64,000 bases of DNA. Source: an uncultured Tateyamaria sp. (lineage in GTDB: Bacteria; Pseudomonadota; Alphaproteobacteria; Rhodobacterales; Rhodobacteraceae). The DNA lies in the NCBI RefSeq assembly GCF_947488715.1, contig NZ_CANLAG010000002.1, forward strand, positions 248,001 through 312,000, in the 5' to 3' direction. Under the pieces are notes generated by a model that was not told the origin of the DNA, did no database searches, and saw nothing but the letters and a program-made list of their open reading frames with translations. The position numbers were made by a program, and so were the translations under genes. This document shows positions 31,881 to 40,090 of this stretch, piece by piece (the first letter of the stretch is position 1; the number at the start of each line of letters is the position of its first letter).

Positions 31881-32909
31881 ATGACCTATAACATCGCAAT
31901 TCTGGGCGCTTCCGGCTATACGGGCGCTGAGCTGATCCGGTTGATTGCCGGGCATTCCTCTATTCAAATCAAGGCGCTGGGCGCGTTTTCCAAGGCGGGT
32001 CAGCCGGTGTCGCAGGTGTATCCGCATCTGCGTCATCTGGATCTGCCGGACATGGTGCCGTTTGACGCCATCGACTGGGCGGGGATTGACCTGTGTTTCT
32101 GCGCCTTGCCGCACAAGACGAGCCAAGAGGTGATTTCCGGCCTGCCGCGCGATTTGCGGATCGTGGACCTGTCGGCTGATTTCCGGCTGGAAGATCCGGC
32201 GGAGTATCAGAAGTGGTATGGCAACCCGCATGCGGCGGTCGAGATGCAGGGCGAGGCGGTTTATGGCCTGACCGAGTTTTACCGGGGCGAGATCCGCGCC
32301 GCGCGGTTGGTGGCGGGCACCGGGTGCAATGCAGCGACGGGGCAGTTTGCGTTGCGGCCGTTGATTGCGGCGGGGGTGATTGATCTGGATGACATCATTC
32401 TGGACCTCAAGGCGGCGGTGTCGGGCGCGGGTCGAGCGCTCAAGGAAAACCTGCTGCACGCAGAGCTGTCGGAGGGGTATCACGCCTATGCCACGGGCGG
32501 GGCGCACCGGCATCTGGGCGAGTTCGATCAGGAGTTTTCCAAGGTGGCGGGCCGGGACGTGCGCATCCAGTTCCAGCCGCATCTGATCCCGGCGAACCGG
32601 GGTATTCTGGGCACGGCCTATGTGAAGGGCGACGCGCAGGCGGTGCATGACACGCTGGCCGCGGCCTATGCGGGCGAGCCGTTCATCGAGGTGCTGCCTC
32701 TGGGTGAGGTGCCGTCGACACGGCACATTCGCGGGTCGAACTTTTGCCATATCGGTGTTGCGGCGGACCGGTTGCCTGGTCGAGTGGTCGTGGTGGCGGC
32801 GCTGGACAACCTGACAAAAGGTTCATCGGGGCAGGCGTTGCAAAACGCCAACCTGATGTTAGGTATTGAAGAGACCGAGGGGCTGATGATGGCCCCGCTT
32901 TTTCCGTAA
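31881..32909 (+). CDS. argC: N-acetyl-gamma-glutamyl-phosphate reductase
   Basis: NADPH-dependent third step of arginine synthesis. The Rossmann motif [15 protein letters not shown] (7-21) and the active-site [10 protein letters not shown] (cysteine about 149) are clear, as are LPHKTSQ and the [10 protein letters not shown] histidine block. The 342-residue length is that of the type 1 enzyme. Starts 27 bp after murI; ccmE follows after 9 bp. Confidence 0.95.
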
Positions 32910-32918
32910 CGAGACCGC

Positions 32919-33362
32919 ATGAAAAGCCTCAAGAAACAGCGCCGGATCCAGATCATCGCTTTGGCCACCGTGGCCTTGGCCTTGTCCACGGCGCTGATTG
33001 GCTATGCGATGCGGGACGGCATCAACTTTTTCCGCGCGCCGAGCCAGATTGTCGCCGAACCACCCGGTCCCGCAGAGGTGTTTCGCATCGGCGGGTTGGT
33101 GGCCGAAGGCTCGCTGATCCGGGGGCAGGGCGAATCGATCCGCTTTGCGGTGACGGATGGGGGTGCCACTGTGCCGGTGGTGTTCACGGGCGTGTTGCCG
33201 GATCTCTTTGAGGAAAATCAGGGCATGGTTGGCACCGGGCGCTACATCAATGGTGTGTTCGAAGCCTCTGAAATTCTTGCCAAACATGACGAGACCTATA
33301 TGCCTGCCGAAGTGGTGGATGCCCTCAAGGAACAGGGTGTCTATCAGGACCCCAACGGCTAG
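32919..33362 (+). CDS. ccmE: Cytochrome c maturation haem chaperone CcmE
   Basis: Periplasmic haem carrier of the System I pathway, 147 residues with one N-terminal membrane anchor (about 9-29) and a beta-barrel. The covalent haem histidine lies in KHDETYMP (His123, Tyr127). ccmF and ccmH follow at 34807-37217 but are separated from ccmE by an endolysin/holin pair; ccmABCDG are not in the window. Confidence 0.95.
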   Translation: MKSLKKQRRIQIIALATVALALSTALIGYAMRDGINFFRAPSQIVAEPPGPAEVFRIGGLVAEGSLIRGQGESIRFAVTDGGATVPVVFTGVLPDLFEENQGMVGTGRYINGVFEASEILAKHDETYMPAEVVDALKEQGVYQDPNG

Positions 33363-33444
33363 CGCACGGTCGGGTTAAGACCCGTTAACCAACATTGCAG
33401 CAGTGTTGCCCCACGGAACGGACCTGTGCCGAGGGGAGCCTGAG

Positions 33445-34056
33445 ATGCAGACGGTCAGAGAGATTGCCAAGGAAATTGTGGCCCGCGAGGGTGGCTATGT
33501 GAATGACCCGGATGATCCCGGCGGGGCCACGAATTTTGGCGTCACCATTCACACGATGCGTCGTTTGGGTCTGGACCTGGACGGGGACGGAGATGTGGAC
33601 GTGCGCGATGTCAAACGCCTGACGCAAGCGCAGGCCACGGACATTTTCGTCACGCATTATTTCGAACGTCCCTTGATTGCGGAGCTGCCGCAGACGCTGC
33701 ATGCGACGGTGTTTGACATGTATGTCAACGCAGGTGGCAACGCGATCAAGATCCTGCAGCGGTTGCTGACCCAGATGGGGTTTGCCTGTGTTGTGGACGG
33801 AGCACTTGGGCCGCAATCGATTGCGGCGGCGCGCGCGGCCCATGAGGCGGCGCCGGATCATCTGGTGGACGCCTACGGCATTGCGCGGCGCAATTACTAT
33901 TTCCGCATCGGGGATCGCCGTCCGGCGAGCCGCAAATACGCCCGCACCCGCGCCGGTCGCAAGGGCGGTTGGATCAAACGGGCCGAGGAATTCATCACGC
34001 CGCGCTATCACATGAGCCCGGCGCAGTTTCAGGAGAGGGTTGCGTCATGGGGTTGA
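33445..34056 (+). CDS. GH108 N-acetylmuramidase (endolysin-like) with EF-hand-like insert
   Basis: A 203-residue peptidoglycan hydrolase. EGGYVNDPDDPGG (15-27) is the GH108 signature with Glu15 as the expected acid catalyst; a peptidoglycan-binding-type C-terminal half follows. No signal peptide, so it would need a holin to reach its substrate, and a holin-like gene overlaps its 3' end. Residues 44-55, DLDGDGDVDVRD, look like a calcium-binding EF-hand or dockerin loop inserted in the catalytic domain. ATG 33445 has GAGGGGAG upstream. In Rhodobacter capsulatus such an endolysin/holin pair serves release of the gene transfer agent. Confidence 0.82.
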   Translation: MQTVREIAKEIVAREGGYVNDPDDPGGATNFGVTIHTMRRLGLDLDGDGDVDVRDVKRLTQAQATDIFVTHYFERPLIAELPQTLHATVFDMYVNAGGNAIKILQRLLTQMGFACVVDGALGPQSIAAARAAHEAAPDHLVDAYGIARRNYYFRIGDRRPASRKYARTRAGRKGGWIKRAEEFITPRYHMSPAQFQERVASWG

Positions 34057-34619
34057 TGGAGCGGATGTTCGGTCTGCTGTTTGGCGGCGGATCAAATGTT
34101 GTGAAAGACACAGTTGAAGTGTTCCGCGAAAACGCGGAAGCCGGATCGGCGCGCGCGCATGAAGTGCAGGTCCAGGCGATGACGGAGTTCGGCCAGGAAT
34201 TCATGGTGCCGCGCCAGGGGGTATTTGACCGTATCATGGACGGGGTGAACCGGTTGCCGCGCCCGGCGCTGGCGCTGGGGACGCTGGGGTTGTTCGTGTC
34301 GGCCATGGTCGCGCCGCTGTGGTTTGCGGAACGGATGCAGGGCATCGCACTGGTGCCTGAGCCGCTGTGGTGGTTGTTGGGGGTGATCGTGTCGTTCTAT
34401 TTCGGGGCGCGCCATCAGGTGAAGGCGCAGCAGTTCCAGCGCGAGATTGTCACCACCATGAGCCGTGTGCCGCAAGTGATGGAGAACGTCGCCGCCTTGC
34501 GCAAGATGCGCGCGGACAGTGTGGGTGTTGCGGCCACGGGGGCGGATGCGCGGTTGACGGCGGCGGCGATCCTGCCGGACGCAAACCCGGCGCTGGAGGC
34601 ATGGCAGCGTGCGGCGTGA
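34047..34619 (+). CDS. Holin-like membrane protein (3TM phage holin family)
   Basis: A 190-residue protein from ATG 34047, overlapping the endolysin by 10 bp, so the two are translated together. It has an amphipathic N-terminus and two to three hydrophobic segments (about 73-94 and 102-122, possibly 5-20), then a charged C-terminal tail, the pattern of the 3TM holin family. Its role would be to let the signal-less endolysin across the inner membrane. The size is larger than lambda-type holins but normal for this family. Confidence 0.7.
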   Translation: MGLMERMFGLLFGGGSNVVKDTVEVFRENAEAGSARAHEVQVQAMTEFGQEFMVPRQGVFDRIMDGVNRLPRPALALGTLGLFVSAMVAPLWFAERMQGIALVPEPLWWLLGVIVSFYFGARHQVKAQQFQREIVTTMSRVPQVMENVAALRKMRADSVGVAATGADARLTAAAILPDANPALEAWQRAA

Positions 34620-34806
34620 TGGCCGCCTCGTGATCTTGCGGACGCCCTGACGGGCGGCGTGATTGTCAGGGGGGCTTTGCCCCCCGTCCTTGCGGACTCC
34701 CCCCAAGGTATTGGGGGCGAAAGGAAGCGGGCAACTGGCGATGTCGTGATGGGGGCGATGCGTTTGTCGCATTGGCGTTTCGGGGGCGGTGCACTAGAGT
34801 TTGGGC
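34620..34806. other. Gap between holin-like gene and ccmF
   Basis: Contains the two-hairpin repeat at 34667-34728 and presumably a ccmF promoter. No ORF of coding quality is seen. Confidence 0.5.
34667..34728 (+). repeat. Two-hairpin dispersed intergenic element
   Basis: A 7-bp stem GGGGGGC-TTT-GCCCCCC (34669-34685) is followed by CCCCCAA-GGTA-TTGGGGG (34700-34717) and GCGAAAGGAAGC. The last part matches the inverted copy at 18115-18145. It may terminate endolysin/holin transcription before ccmF. Confidence 0.65.
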
Positions 34807-36765
34807 ATGATTACAGAACTTGGTCACTTTGCCCTTATTCTTGCGTTTCTGGTGGCGATCTTGCAGGCGACTGTGCCCCTTGTGGGGGCGTGGCGGCGCA
34901 ATGATCGGTGGATGGCCGTGGCGGAGCCTGCGGCCTCGGCGCAGTTTCTGCTGATCGGGTTTTCCTTTGCCGCGTTGATGTATGCGTTCATCGTGTCGGA
35001 TTTTTCGCTGCGGCTGGTGGTGCTGAACAGCCATTCGGCCAAGCCGATGCTCTACAAGATTTCGGGCACCTGGGGGAACCACGAGGGGTCGATGCTGCTA
35101 TGGGTGCTGATCGTGGCGCTTTTTGGGGCGATGGCGGCGTGGTTCGGGGGCAATCTGCCGCCCAGCCTGCGGGCGCGGGTGCTGGCGGTGCAGGGGGCGA
35201 TTGGAGTCGCGTTTCTGGCCTTTATCCTCTTTACCTCGAACCCGTTCTTGCGTCTGGCGGTGCCGCCCTTTGACGGGCAGGACTTGAACCCGCTGTTGCA
35301 GGACCCCGGTTTGGCCTTTCATCCGCCGTTTCTGTATTTGGGCTATGTTGGCCTGAGCATGGCGTTTTCCTTTGCCGTGGCCGCGTTGATCGAGGGCCGC
35401 GTGGATGCGGCCTGGGGGCGTTGGGTGCGGCCCTGGACGCTGGCGGCCTGGGTGTTTTTGACCATCGGTATCGCGCTGGGGTCCTGGTGGGCCTACTACG
35501 AGTTGGGTTGGGGCGGGTTCTGGTTCTGGGACCCGGTCGAGAATGCGTCGTTCATGCCGTGGCTGTTGGCGGCGGCGCTGCTGCATTCGGCCATCGTGGT
35601 GGAAAAGCGTGAGAGCCTGAAATCCTGGACCATTTTGCTGGCGATCCTGGCCTTTGGCTTTTCGCTGATTGGCACGTTTATCGTGCGGTCGGGGTTGCTG
35701 ACATCTGTGCATGCCTTTGCCAATGATCCAGAGCGCGGTGTGTTCATCCTGATGATCATGGGCTTTTTCATGGGGGGCGCGTTGATCCTGTTTGCGCTGC
35801 GCGCCGGTACGATGGAAGCGCGCGGTGTGTTTGGCATGGTCAGCCGCGAGAGCGCGCTGGTGGCCAACAATCTGCTGCTTGCGGTGAGCTGTTTTGTCGT
35901 TTTTGTCGGGACGATGTGGCCGCTGGTGGCGGAGATGTTCTTTGACCGTAAGCTGAGTGTGGGGCCGCCGTTTTTCAACATGGCGTTTACGCCGTTCATG
36001 GTGGTGCTGGGGCTGATCCTGCCCGTGGGCGCGATGATGCCGTGGAAGCGTGGTAGCGTGGCCAAGGCGGCCTGGCCGCTGCGCTATGTGTTTTTGGCGG
36101 CAATTGCCTTTGGCGGTTTGGCCTGGGCGTTGCAGACGGGGCGCAGTCTGATCGGGCCGATGGGCGCGTTTCTGGGTGCGTGGCTGGTCATGGGGGCGGC
36201 GGTGGATATCGCGTCGCGTACCGGCCAGCGGTTTAACGCGGGCCGTCTGTTCCGCTTGCCGCGTGCCGATTGGGGCAAGGCGGTGGCGCATGCTGGCCTC
36301 GGCATTACGATGCTGGGGGTGGCGGGGCTGACCTCGTGGCAATCCGAGGACATCCGCGTGGCGCAGATTGGCGAGACGTTCAACGTGGGCGGCTATGATC
36401 TGACGTTGAATGCGGTGAATGACGTCGAGGGGCCGAATTACCTGGCGACGGTGGCCGAGATCACGCTGGCCAAGGGCGGGCGTGAGATTGCGGACCTGCG
36501 GCCTGAAAAGCGGATTTATCCGGTGGCGCAGATGCCCACAACGGAGGCGGCGATCGACTATGATCTGGCGCGCGATGTTTATGTGGTGATTGGGGATGCG
36601 CAGGCCAACGGAGGGTGGGCGGTGCGGACCTATATTAAGCCGCTGACCAACTGGATCTGGATTGGATGCACGTTGATGGCGCTGGGGGGGCTGTTGAGCC
36701 TGAGTGACCGGCGGTTCCGTGTGGCGGTTGGTGCGCGCAAGACAGCGGCGGTGCCTGCGGAATGA
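34807..36765 (+). CDS. ccmF: Haem lyase subunit CcmF
   Basis: Integral membrane component that ligates haem from CcmE to apocytochrome c. The 652-residue protein has about 14 TM helices and the tryptophan-rich WWD domain (WAYYELGWGGFWFWDPVEN, about 229-247) plus flanking histidines. ATG 34807 is preferred to a TTG six bases earlier. The stop codon overlaps ccmH (ATGA). Confidence 0.96.
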   Translation: MITELGHFALILAFLVAILQATVPLVGAWRRNDRWMAVAEPAASAQFLLIGFSFAALMYAFIVSDFSLRLVVLNSHSAKPMLYKISGTWGNHEGSMLLWVLIVALFGAMAAWFGGNLPPSLRARVLAVQGAIGVAFLAFILFTSNPFLRLAVPPFDGQDLNPLLQDPGLAFHPPFLYLGYVGLSMAFSFAVAALIEGRVDAAWGRWVRPWTLAAWVFLTIGIALGSWWAYYELGWGGFWFWDPVENASFMPWLLAAALLHSAIVVEKRESLKSWTILLAILAFGFSLIGTFIVRSGLLTSVHAFANDPERGVFILMIMGFFMGGALILFALRAGTMEARGVFGMVSRESALVANNLLLAVSCFVVFVGTMWPLVAEMFFDRKLSVGPPFFNMAFTPFMVVLGLILPVGAMMPWKRGSVAKAAWPLRYVFLAAIAFGGLAWALQTGRSLIGPMGAFLGAWLVMGAAVDIASRTGQRFNAGRLFRLPRADWGKAVAHAGLGITMLGVAGLTSWQSEDIRVAQIGETFNVGGYDLTLNAVNDVEGPNYLATVAEITLAKGGREIADLRPEKRIYPVAQMPTTEAAIDYDLARDVYVVIGDAQANGGWAVRTYIKPLTNWIWIGCTLMALGGLLSLSDRRFRVAVGARKTAAVPAE

Positions 36766-38116: not shown

Positions 38117-39862
38117 TCAGCTGTTTGGATCGACCAGTGACGTGTCGAGTTCCGTCACAACCGTGACGTTTGCGGCCGTCAGCGTGGCTGCGGCACCGGT
38201 CACCGTTGCGATCTGCGCGCCGTTCAGGAACACAAGCGCGTCGGCGCCCGATGCATCGACAACGATCTGTGGGTTTGCACTGGCCTGTGTGTCCACCACG
38301 ACAATGCTGTCATCCGCCGCGCTGTAGTCGGTGATTTGCGCGACACCGGTCGCGTCGGTTTGGCCGAGGATTGCAAAGGTGTCCTCCCCTGCGCCGCCCG
38401 AGGCGATGTCGTTCTGGCCAAAGATCAACAGATCGTCGCCGTTGCCGCCATCCAGCGTGTCACTGCTGCCGCTGTCATCGAAGGGTGTGAACGTGTCACC
38501 GACGCCGGGCACCAAATCATCCAACTCTTCACCATTGCGCACCTGTGTCAGCTGCGACGTGGTCAGTGGATCGGCCAAAAGCTCGCCGCCCATGACGACG
38601 TCGTTGCCTTCACCCCCGGACAGCAGGTCAGCGCCGGTGCCGCCGATCACCGTGTCAGCCTGAAGGCCGCCGTTGACGCGGTCGTCGCCGTCATTGCCGT
38701 CAACCCAGTCAAAGCCCTGGTTGCCGGACAGGGTGTCATCGCCGCCACGGCCCTGAAGGTAGTCGTTGTCGGCGTTGCCTGTGATCACGTCAAAACCGGC
38801 CTGACCCTGAACAATATCCGAGCCGTCACCGCCACTGATCGTGTCGTTGCCTGCGCGGCCTTCGATCACGTCTTCTTCGCCGAGGCCGTTGATGATTTCG
38901 TCAGCCGCTGTGCCAACAATGTTGTCGTCGCTCTCTGTGCCGTCAATCACGGGCGTGGTGGAGGGGTCTTCGGGTTGCAGGATTTCGATGTCGTCTGCGG
39001 TGAGCGTGCCAGCCGCGCCAGTGACGCGGGCCAGAACCTCGCCGTCATAGGACACCAGCGCATCGCCGTCTTCGTCCGCGACGCTGATGGCGTCCTCATC
39101 CACGGTCTCATCCGCGCGGAAGTAGAGCGCGATGGCCTCGCCGTTGGGTTTGTTAAAGTCGGTGATGGTTGCGGGGCCCAGATCGCTGTCGCCATTGTCG
39201 GCGATGATGGCAAAGGCGTCGAGTTCGCGGCCACCTGTCACCTCGTCACCGGCGCCGGCAATCAGCAGGTCCGACCCTTCGCCGCCCAAGAGCTGGTCTG
39301 CGGCGCCGTCGTCGCGCAGCTCGGCGACGGGTGGGGTTCCGTCCACAAAGATGTCGTTGATTGTGCCGCCGTCGCGCAAAACGCCCAGTTCAGCGGTGGA
39401 CAGAGGGTCGGCGTTGAATTCGCCGCCGACAACGACGTCGTCGCCGCTGCGGCCGTTGACGATGTCCTCGCCCATGCCGCCGATCACAACGTCGGAGCCA
39501 ACGCCACCACGCACCACGTCCGAACCGTCGTTGCCGTCAACCCAGTCGTCGCCGTCAAAGCCCTGGAGGGTGTCGTCGTCGCCGCGGCCCTGCATGGCGT
39601 CGTTGCCTATGCCGCCGATTAGCAGGTCGTCACCGTTGAGACCCTGGAGCACGTCGTCGCCAGCGGTGCCGTCGAGCGTGTCGTCACCCAGCAGACCGAT
39701 GATGTCGTCATTGCCATCCGTGCCGGTGATCGCATCCGGGCCGATGGTGCCGATCAGGGTCTTGCCGTTTTCGTCTTCAGCTCCGATCTGGTCATCGAAG
39801 TCCTCGTCCGGTGTCAATGAGCCCGCAAATAAAGCAGGAAAAAGCGATAGCAAAAAAAGCAT
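38117..39862 (-). CDS. RTX calcium-binding repeat protein with internal duplication
   Basis: A 581-residue acidic protein from ATG 39862 with GGGGGGACC upstream. A hydrophobic N-terminus (MLFLLSLFPALFAGS) is followed by two homologous halves, each an array of nonapeptides of GGxGxDxx type (about 40-150 and 305-420), then an ADPLxT segment, a DTFAI-like strand and a closing VTGAAGTLTADD/VTGAAATLTAAN block (about 280-295 and 545-560). RTX repeats fold on calcium outside the cell, usually after type I secretion. No ABC exporter genes are nearby. Function unknown. Confidence 0.85.
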   Translation of the reverse strand: MLFLLSLFPALFAGSLTPDEDFDDQIGAEDENGKTLIGTIGPDAITGTDGNDDIIGLLGDDTLDGTAGDDVLQGLNGDDLLIGGIGNDAMQGRGDDDTLQGFDGDDWVDGNDGSDVVRGGVGSDVVIGGMGEDIVNGRSGDDVVVGGEFNADPLSTAELGVLRDGGTINDIFVDGTPPVAELRDDGAADQLLGGEGSDLLIAGAGDEVTGGRELDAFAIIADNGDSDLGPATITDFNKPNGEAIALYFRADETVDEDAISVADEDGDALVSYDGEVLARVTGAAGTLTADDIEILQPEDPSTTPVIDGTESDDNIVGTAADEIINGLGEEDVIEGRAGNDTISGGDGSDIVQGQAGFDVITGNADNDYLQGRGGDDTLSGNQGFDWVDGNDGDDRVNGGLQADTVIGGTGADLLSGGEGNDVVMGGELLADPLTTSQLTQVRNGEELDDLVPGVGDTFTPFDDSGSSDTLDGGNGDDLLIFGQNDIASGGAGEDTFAILGQTDATGVAQITDYSAADDSIVVVDTQASANPQIVVDASGADALVFLNGAQIATVTGAAATLTAANVTVVTELDTSLVDPNS

Positions 39863-40090
39863 GGTGGTCCCCCCGGATCCAAAACAAACAAAGCAAGCCA
39901 TATTGTCTGCTTGTGCGTCTGCCCCTGTCAAGTTTGCAACCGCTGGATGGTAAAATTATCCCCAAATTATAAGTAGTTACTCGACTTCCGGTTGATTTTC
40001 CCGGATTTGGAAACAGTGGCACCAGCGAGTCGACACAAAAAATGCGCCGCTTTTGCAAGCGACGCATTTCGGGATCGTGATGTGCGCGGA
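39863..40090. other. Gap between RTX gene and gltA
   Basis: AT-richer than its surroundings (for example TTATAAGTAGTTAC near 39965), consistent with a promoter for the RTX gene on the minus strand. It also holds the gltA terminator. Confidence 0.4.
40037..40068 (-). terminator. gltA rho-independent terminator
   Basis: On the minus strand AATGCGTCGCTT-GCAA-AAGCGGCGCATT forms a 12-bp stem with one mismatch followed by a run of T, about 20 bp after the gltA stop. Confidence 0.8.

Follow-up and report, generated by a model that had tools for sequence, protein, structure and literature searches.

The endolysin and holin genes

Two overlapping genes lie on the plus strand of the window, which is the whole 64,000-nucleotide stretch analysed here. 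The first gene (33445..34056, +) encodes an endolysin of 203 amino acids with a Glyco_hydro_108 muramidase domain (Pfam, E = 5e-26) and a PG_binding_3 domain (E = 2e-20). Its N-terminus, MQTVREIAKEIVAREGGYVND, has no hydrophobic leader, so that the open reading frame, the domains and the missing leader all bear out the signal-less GH108 muramidase described in the initial annotation. The second gene (34047..34619, +) encodes a protein of 190 amino acids that matches the holin family PF11351, GTA_holin_3TM (E = 8e-28). It had been described as a 3TM holin-like gene, and the holin part of this description stands, but "3TM" is the name of the family, and the hydropathy profile gives two clear hydrophobic stretches, at residues ~70-95 and 97-121, rather than three. 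The AlphaFold model of the holin has a low confidence (mean pLDDT 66) and is too poor for a fold search.

The two reading frames share 10 bp (34047-34056), as claimed earlier. An overlap of exactly 10 bp was found in 118 of 129 pairs, the window's own among them, and is therefore not a matter of chance. In two sets of relatives, the median omega (Nei-Gojobori, with dS near or above 1 in several groups) was 0.20-0.25 for the endolysin and 0.21-0.29 for the holin, and the frames are intact; the reference consisted of Rhodobacter-genus genomes, in which GTA status was checked for G046, G150, and G151 only.

The pair is situated between ccmE (32919..33362, +) and ccmF (34807..36765, +), both with Pfam support, which agrees with the earlier placement. 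The second upstream neighbor (31881..32909, +) carries Pfam semialdehyde dehydrogenase domains and was named argC by reading. Together with ccmH and an enoyl-CoA hydratase gene, these genes make up the surroundings of the pair, which are not those of a Mu-type prophage. Gene transfer agents (GTAs) are phage-like particles carrying host DNA. The initial annotation had also stated that the window holds no phage structural gene; as far as a comparison with 17 open reading frames from the GTA region of this genome and its flanks goes, this agrees, none of the 17 having a match in the window (tblastn, E ≤ 1e-3). A 604-amino-acid open reading frame on the minus strand (38117-39931) contains many GGxGxD-like repeats and looks, by eye, like the RTX-type calcium-binding kind.

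The ccm-side location in the family

At a sampling of one genome per genus, 149 genomes of the family were examined for PF11351, and 127 have it. We took 130 of 138 holin places for comparison, omitting the window itself and seven weak or second copies. Among these loci, ccmE is the nearest tested gene 5' of the holin locus in 108, two of which have no endolysin, and ccmF lies 3' in 94, a count in which misses are over-represented because 30 of the 130 loci span just 1.5 kb per side and some stop at contig ends. The position beside the ccm genes is the family's usual place for the pair and no oddity of this genome, and it gives the usual address of GTA release genes in the Rhodobacteraceae. 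In the accessible portions of papers dealing with GTA or lysis genes in connection with ccm genes or gene order, we found no description of this location.

Counterparts in Rhodobacter capsulatus and other known systems

The promoter fragment of rcc00555 used in mobility-shift assays is defined by printed primers in the available text of PMC6854486. Of 18 genomes examined from a single genus of the family, G151 contains both primers as exact matches, 997 bp apart, and its GTA capsid is 100% identical over the 289 residues used of PDB 6tb9, the solved RcGTA capsid; for these two reasons, we identify G151 as R. capsulatus. Its locus reads argC, ccmE, endolysin, and holin, with the same 10-bp overlap. 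The window endolysin is 64% identical to that of R. capsulatus over 203 amino acids and the holin 56% identical over 106 amino acids. Because sequence, overlap, and neighbors are shared, the window pair corresponds to rcc00555/rcc00556 and occupies the same place, and the comparison with the R. capsulatus lysis proteins that had been proposed earlier turns out in agreement on all three. The two cassettes also have in common their domain content, argC-ccmE upstream, and the distance from the capsid cluster. They differ in that ccmF lies directly 3' in the window, whereas no ccmF match was found in the remaining ~5 kb of the R. capsulatus stretch 3' of the holin.

Disrupting rcc00555 in R. capsulatus reduced gene transfer and left particles trapped, and the direct lytic activity of its product was at that time not yet demonstrated, according to the part of PMC3423380 available to us. 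Both rcc00555 and rcc00556 fall within the GTA co-expression module (PMC4158056, accessible text). The available text of PMC6363796 reports that the lysis promoter is bound by GafA and that endolysin induction requires CtrA. In Dinoroseobacter shibae, Dshi_1756/1757 are an endolysin and a holin described as genes for GTA release that are not part of the GTA cluster (PMC6473078, available portion), and we liken them to the window pair by this description. The Caulobacter GTA shares a GTA cluster and GafA-type regulators with the present system, but homologues of the R. capsulatus lysis genes are absent there (PMC9632790, accessible part); PF11351 was found in none of 14 control genomes, Caulobacter included.

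The conserved ccm-side position could suggest a host job for the pair, for example in wall remodelling near cytochrome c maturation, with a functional place in the ccm operon. Such a role would fit the conservation of this position across the family and the retention of the pair, with the endolysin mostly intact, in genomes without a GTA capsid. We nevertheless consider it most unlikely, since the ccmF match is missing from the ~5 kb after the R. capsulatus holin, neither ccmE nor ccmF is found at 10 of the 130 loci, the pair has its own upstream elements, and the R. capsulatus work links the pair to GTA release (PMC3423380, available part).

Elements upstream of the pair

The gap between ccmE and the endolysin gene is 82 bp. 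Directly after the ccmE stop codon, a pattern scan detected a CGNRCG element (CGCACG; 33363..33368, +), which recurs in GTA and gafA promoters and is a candidate site for GafA. A TTAAC sequence (33385..33389, +) follows after 16 bp; it is a CtrA-type half-site and lies in the right arm of GGTTAA-N6-TTAACC (33373-33390). The combined pattern CGNRCG-N16-TTAAC occurs a single time in the 64-kb window (33363-33389), against a chance mean of 0.19. A two-hexamer scan of the plus strand from 33300 to 34900 gave no sigma-70-like promoter.

The same arrangement extends to the relatives. TTAAC is present within 150 bp, on either strand, at 84 of 107 ccmE-flanked loci compared with 14 expected from first-order Markov resampling, and in the 86 loci having TTAAC within 100 bp, it starts at a median of 50 bp before the endolysin start. 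In 73 of these 86, a CGNNCG precedes TTAAC by exactly 22 bp, compared with a mean of 1.2 and a largest value of 5 after a plain letter shuffle. Putative CtrA half-sites were described in the rcc00555 promoter (PMC9638019, accessible text); however, the CGNRCG-N16-TTAAC spacing of the window is absent before rcc00555 in R. capsulatus (L257, no match).

The CGNRCG element is found between the -35 and -10 of GTA promoters, as TTGAC-N4-CGNRCG-N7..9-TA, in 14 of 20 intact loci, among them that of the genome studied here (a plain count; 21 loci were fetched, one of which lacked the terminase end). Upstream of the genome's own gafA homologue (L034:703-718), CGAACG lies across the spacer of TTAAC-N6-GTAAC, the form of CtrA site reported for gafA in the available part of PMC6363796. 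The own GTA promoter (L033) likewise shares CGNRCG with the lysis and gafA promoters. The earlier proposal to look for GafA/CtrA sites upstream of 33445 is thus answered, at the level of sequence elements, by a CtrA-type half-site and an element common to the GTA promoter. From these patterns, we infer that CGNRCG would be the GafA site and that CtrA would act through TTAAC. An element common to the lysis, GTA, and gafA promoters is directly testable.

The GTA cluster of the same genome and the probable role of the pair in particle release

A single GTA_TIM gene is present in the genome, which comprises 24 contigs and 4.13 Mb. This gene lies on contig 7 within an RcGTA-type cluster that also encodes terminase, portal, prohead protease, capsid, connector, tail tube, hub, and NlpC/P60 proteins. 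The capsid scores 607 bits to the solved R. capsulatus capsid Rcc01687, and reading of the translations places fabF and mltG before the cluster and cysE after it. A gafA homologue with DUF6456 and an N-terminal helix-turn-helix, the make-up of GafA, is located on the window's contig ~71 kb past the window end; the DUF6456 annotation of GafA homologues is described in the accessible portion of PMC9638019. Both the GTA genes and the GafA gene that the initial annotation had suggested searching for are therefore in the genome. Its description of the pair as an "orphan" GTA module applies in the sense that the pair is remote from the capsid cluster, which is also the case in R. capsulatus, and in no other sense.

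Taking together the own GTA cluster and gafA, the match to rcc00555/rcc00556, and the upstream elements, the pair very probably serves as the release module for the RcGTA-type gene transfer agent encoded in this genome, as had been supposed from the window. The pair is predicted to lyse cells of this species. In the proposed course, CtrA and GafA would turn on the GTA programme and a putative promoter in the 82-bp ccmE-endolysin gap would fire; the holin would then open the inner membrane, the leaderless muramidase would get to the wall, and the cell would burst and release its particles.

Phage and Mu-like prophage relatives

Comparison of the endolysin with 50,697 phage records gave no match of 60% identity or more; all 172 matching records are below 60%, and the best among the matches listed reaches 35% over 91% of the query. 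The holin has no match in the same 50,697 records at E ≤ 0.01. Similarly, in the accessible text of PMC8601537, no rcc00555/rcc00556 match over its threshold is reported among the R. capsulatus phages compared. Prophage contigs of IMG/VR are closer than the phage records: 441 encode a relative, and among the best 80 of these 441, which were kept, 51 endolysins are 58-73% identical (L164-L214) and 29 are 33-38% identical. A holin of the same family adjoins the endolysin in 47 of the 51. One such contig, L177, carries a MuA transposase, GemA, and a Mu portal, and four extra copies in the genomes (L055, L103, L105, L127) have Mu-like surroundings by eye. In the tree, the Mu-like prophage copies are intermixed with the ccm-locus copies, and forcing the ccm-locus copies together in a 68-row subset costs 17.6 log units without being rejected (p-AU 0.348). 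Homologues of rcc00555, at 38-45%, are reported from prophage segments of Methylobacterium nodulans in the available text of PMC11409702.

All of this could be read as pointing to a pair left behind or carried along by a Mu-like prophage of the Rhodobacterales, with no part in the GTA. The lysis genes of the Mu-like prophages are indeed of the same two families in the same order, but L177 lies in a Mu-type prophage, whereas the window pair has ccm and housekeeping genes on either side and the GTA-region proteins find no match in the window. Furthermore, most of the 130 loci share the same host locus, and the CGNRCG-N16-TTAAC pattern, which the window copy has, was seen in 74 of the 118 copies at the ccm locus but in none of 55 Mu-like or viral copies (0/51 viral and 0/4 genomic Mu copies). 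A prophage origin of this kind is accordingly very unlikely for the window pair. The initial annotation had considered that the pair might group with a specific prophage; it groups with no single prophage, but this branching test is not cleanly passed because Mu-like copies lie among the ccm-locus copies. The mixture in the trees leads us to conclude that GTAs and Mu-like phages share a lysis module.

The pair and gafA in genomes without the particle

Of the sampled genera, each represented by one of the 149 genomes, 114 encode a match to the RcGTA-type capsid at ~60% identity or higher, and the holin occurs in 103 of these 114. Another 29 genomes have neither a strong capsid nor a strong TIM protein, and the holin is present in 18 of them (Fisher p = 0.0006, kinship uncorrected). 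The two-by-two table omits six genomes with a TIM protein and no capsid match (G003, G013, G018, G021, G111, and G115). Since 11 of the 114 genomes lack the holin and 18 GTA-less genomes have it, the pair and the particle are not strictly coupled. The 11 genomes with a capsid but no GTA_holin_3TM are G004, G008, G019, G048, G054, G083, G094, G101, G125, G133, and G147; some of these assemblies are incomplete (G008 and G147), and others look complete. The TIM gene of G018 has two in-frame stops and one of the two TIM genes of G003 has one stop; both genomes have the lysis holin and no RcGTA capsid match, and their GTA clusters are possibly decaying.

The gafA family is present in all 18 GTA-less, holin-bearing genomes. 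Leaving aside G104, the endolysin is full length in 16 of 17 of them, the remaining one being cut by a contig end, and TTAAC is found in 12 of 17 compared with 70 of 95 GTA-bearing genomes. A TIM fragment, from profile position 203-213 onward, is kept by 11 of the 18, and all 11 have the holin family and gafA; G104, which belongs to this group, gave just a partial holin match and showed no endolysin.

A collapsed GTA locus with a terminase/tail-tip fusion

In nine fetched loci, the cluster is reduced to a single fusion, in which the terminase up to AWxDE continues in frame into Rcc01698-type residues from ~653. The terminase is cut right after Walker B (AWxDE), and its partner is the C-terminal half of the Rcc01698-type tail-tip protein. 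The fusion has the same address as the GTA cluster, mostly with fabF-mltG before and cysE after; in L275, the frame is later broken. The GTA promoter pattern precedes the fusion gene in six of the nine (a plain count). The collapsed cluster occurs in 11 of the 149 sampled genera, and the junction was seen in 10 (L271 and L275-L283). A search of a species-level genome collection with a degenerate 33-base DNA pattern of the junction gave 74 stretches, 69 of which have both parts in one frame (within L305-L377); this pattern fixes the residues around the junction, so a fusion with another junction would escape it and invariance there proves nothing. The carriers include Ruegeria, Roseovarius, Sulfitobacter, Silicimonas, Thioclava, Roseivivax, Boseongicola, and others, plus three Rhizobiales. 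We found no description of a collapsed fusion locus in the accessible portions of the literature on GTA loss, incomplete clusters, and fusion.

Away from the locus edge, 38 of 44 fusion frames have at least 780 codons, and the other six are short (48-723 amino acids), some probably broken. From 44 of the 69 fusion loci, 42 genomes were searched, some of which overlap the 149-genome sample. No RcGTA-type capsid was found in these 42, which gave nine weak matches with a best identity of 47%, and the holin is present in 39, the three misses being the Rhizobiales. All 20 pairs fetched from these 39 have both genes unbroken and the 10-bp overlap preserved; TTAAC is present in 14 of them, and the median omega of pairs in fusion genomes is 0.20 for the endolysin and 0.29 for the holin.

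The Ruegeria fusions have a median omega of 0.065 in the terminase part (28 pairs) and 0.108 in the tail part (17 pairs), and Walker A is invariant across 31 aligned fusions; Walker B is uninformative, being fixed by the search pattern. Judging from the low omega and the invariant Walker A, selection seems to have maintained the fusion once it arose. In the structural model, most of residues 1-86 and residues 184-225, 255-278, and 280-293 around the junction have a pLDDT below 50, which makes an active ATPase in the fusion doubtful.

These genomes raise the question of whether the pair is chiefly the effector of a GafA/CtrA lysis programme in which the particle is optional and GTA release is one use. 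In favor of this are the 39 of 42 fusion genomes that have the holin and no RcGTA-type capsid above 47% identity, the 11 genomes with nothing but a TIM fragment that all retain the holin family and gafA, the intact pairs with their low omega, and the promoter pattern before the fusion gene. However, the losses may be too recent for decay, G104 has a partial holin and no detected endolysin, and the window genome has a full GTA; we regard this account of the window pair as rather unlikely, and the release module of the own GTA remains the preferred reading. As to the relatives themselves, we tentatively propose, as a possibility that falls somewhat short of an even chance, that the GafA/CtrA lysis programme outlives the particle, with the fusion, its promoter, gafA, and the pair preserved as a working particle-free system after a collapse that took place separately in several Rhodobacterales lineages and in three Rhizobiales. 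If true, such a system could serve altruistic lysis, DNA release, or interference with the GTAs of neighbors. The window pair itself is of a known kind, a GTA lysis cassette, and the surprise is the particle-less variant in its relatives. Relatives with the regulator, the lysis genes, and one fusion gene make the own value of GTA-derived lysis testable, and they bear on the question of why costly GTAs persist.

Seven Ruegeria fusions form one clade in the tree. A single clade of all fusions is rejected (p-AU 0.0002), and the well-supported branches force at least nine state changes, although the fusion label was less clustered in most of 500 shuffles, of which 10 gave a value as low. A recent spread of one GTA-deletion allele from genus to genus was considered as the origin of the shared junction and put aside, since many fusions stand beside intact relatives and at least nine changes are needed; near the junction, fusions are no more alike than fusion and intact alleles, a comparison of low power in a stretch that is conserved anyway. 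The shared junction may come from an old exchange followed by local recombination. Both sides of the junction could be located in 16 of 21 intact loci, and in these 16 the matching run there is only 3-8 bp long. In the tree of fusions and intact relatives, the TIM protein closest to that of the window genome comes from a fusion-bearing Tateyamaria, at 75%.
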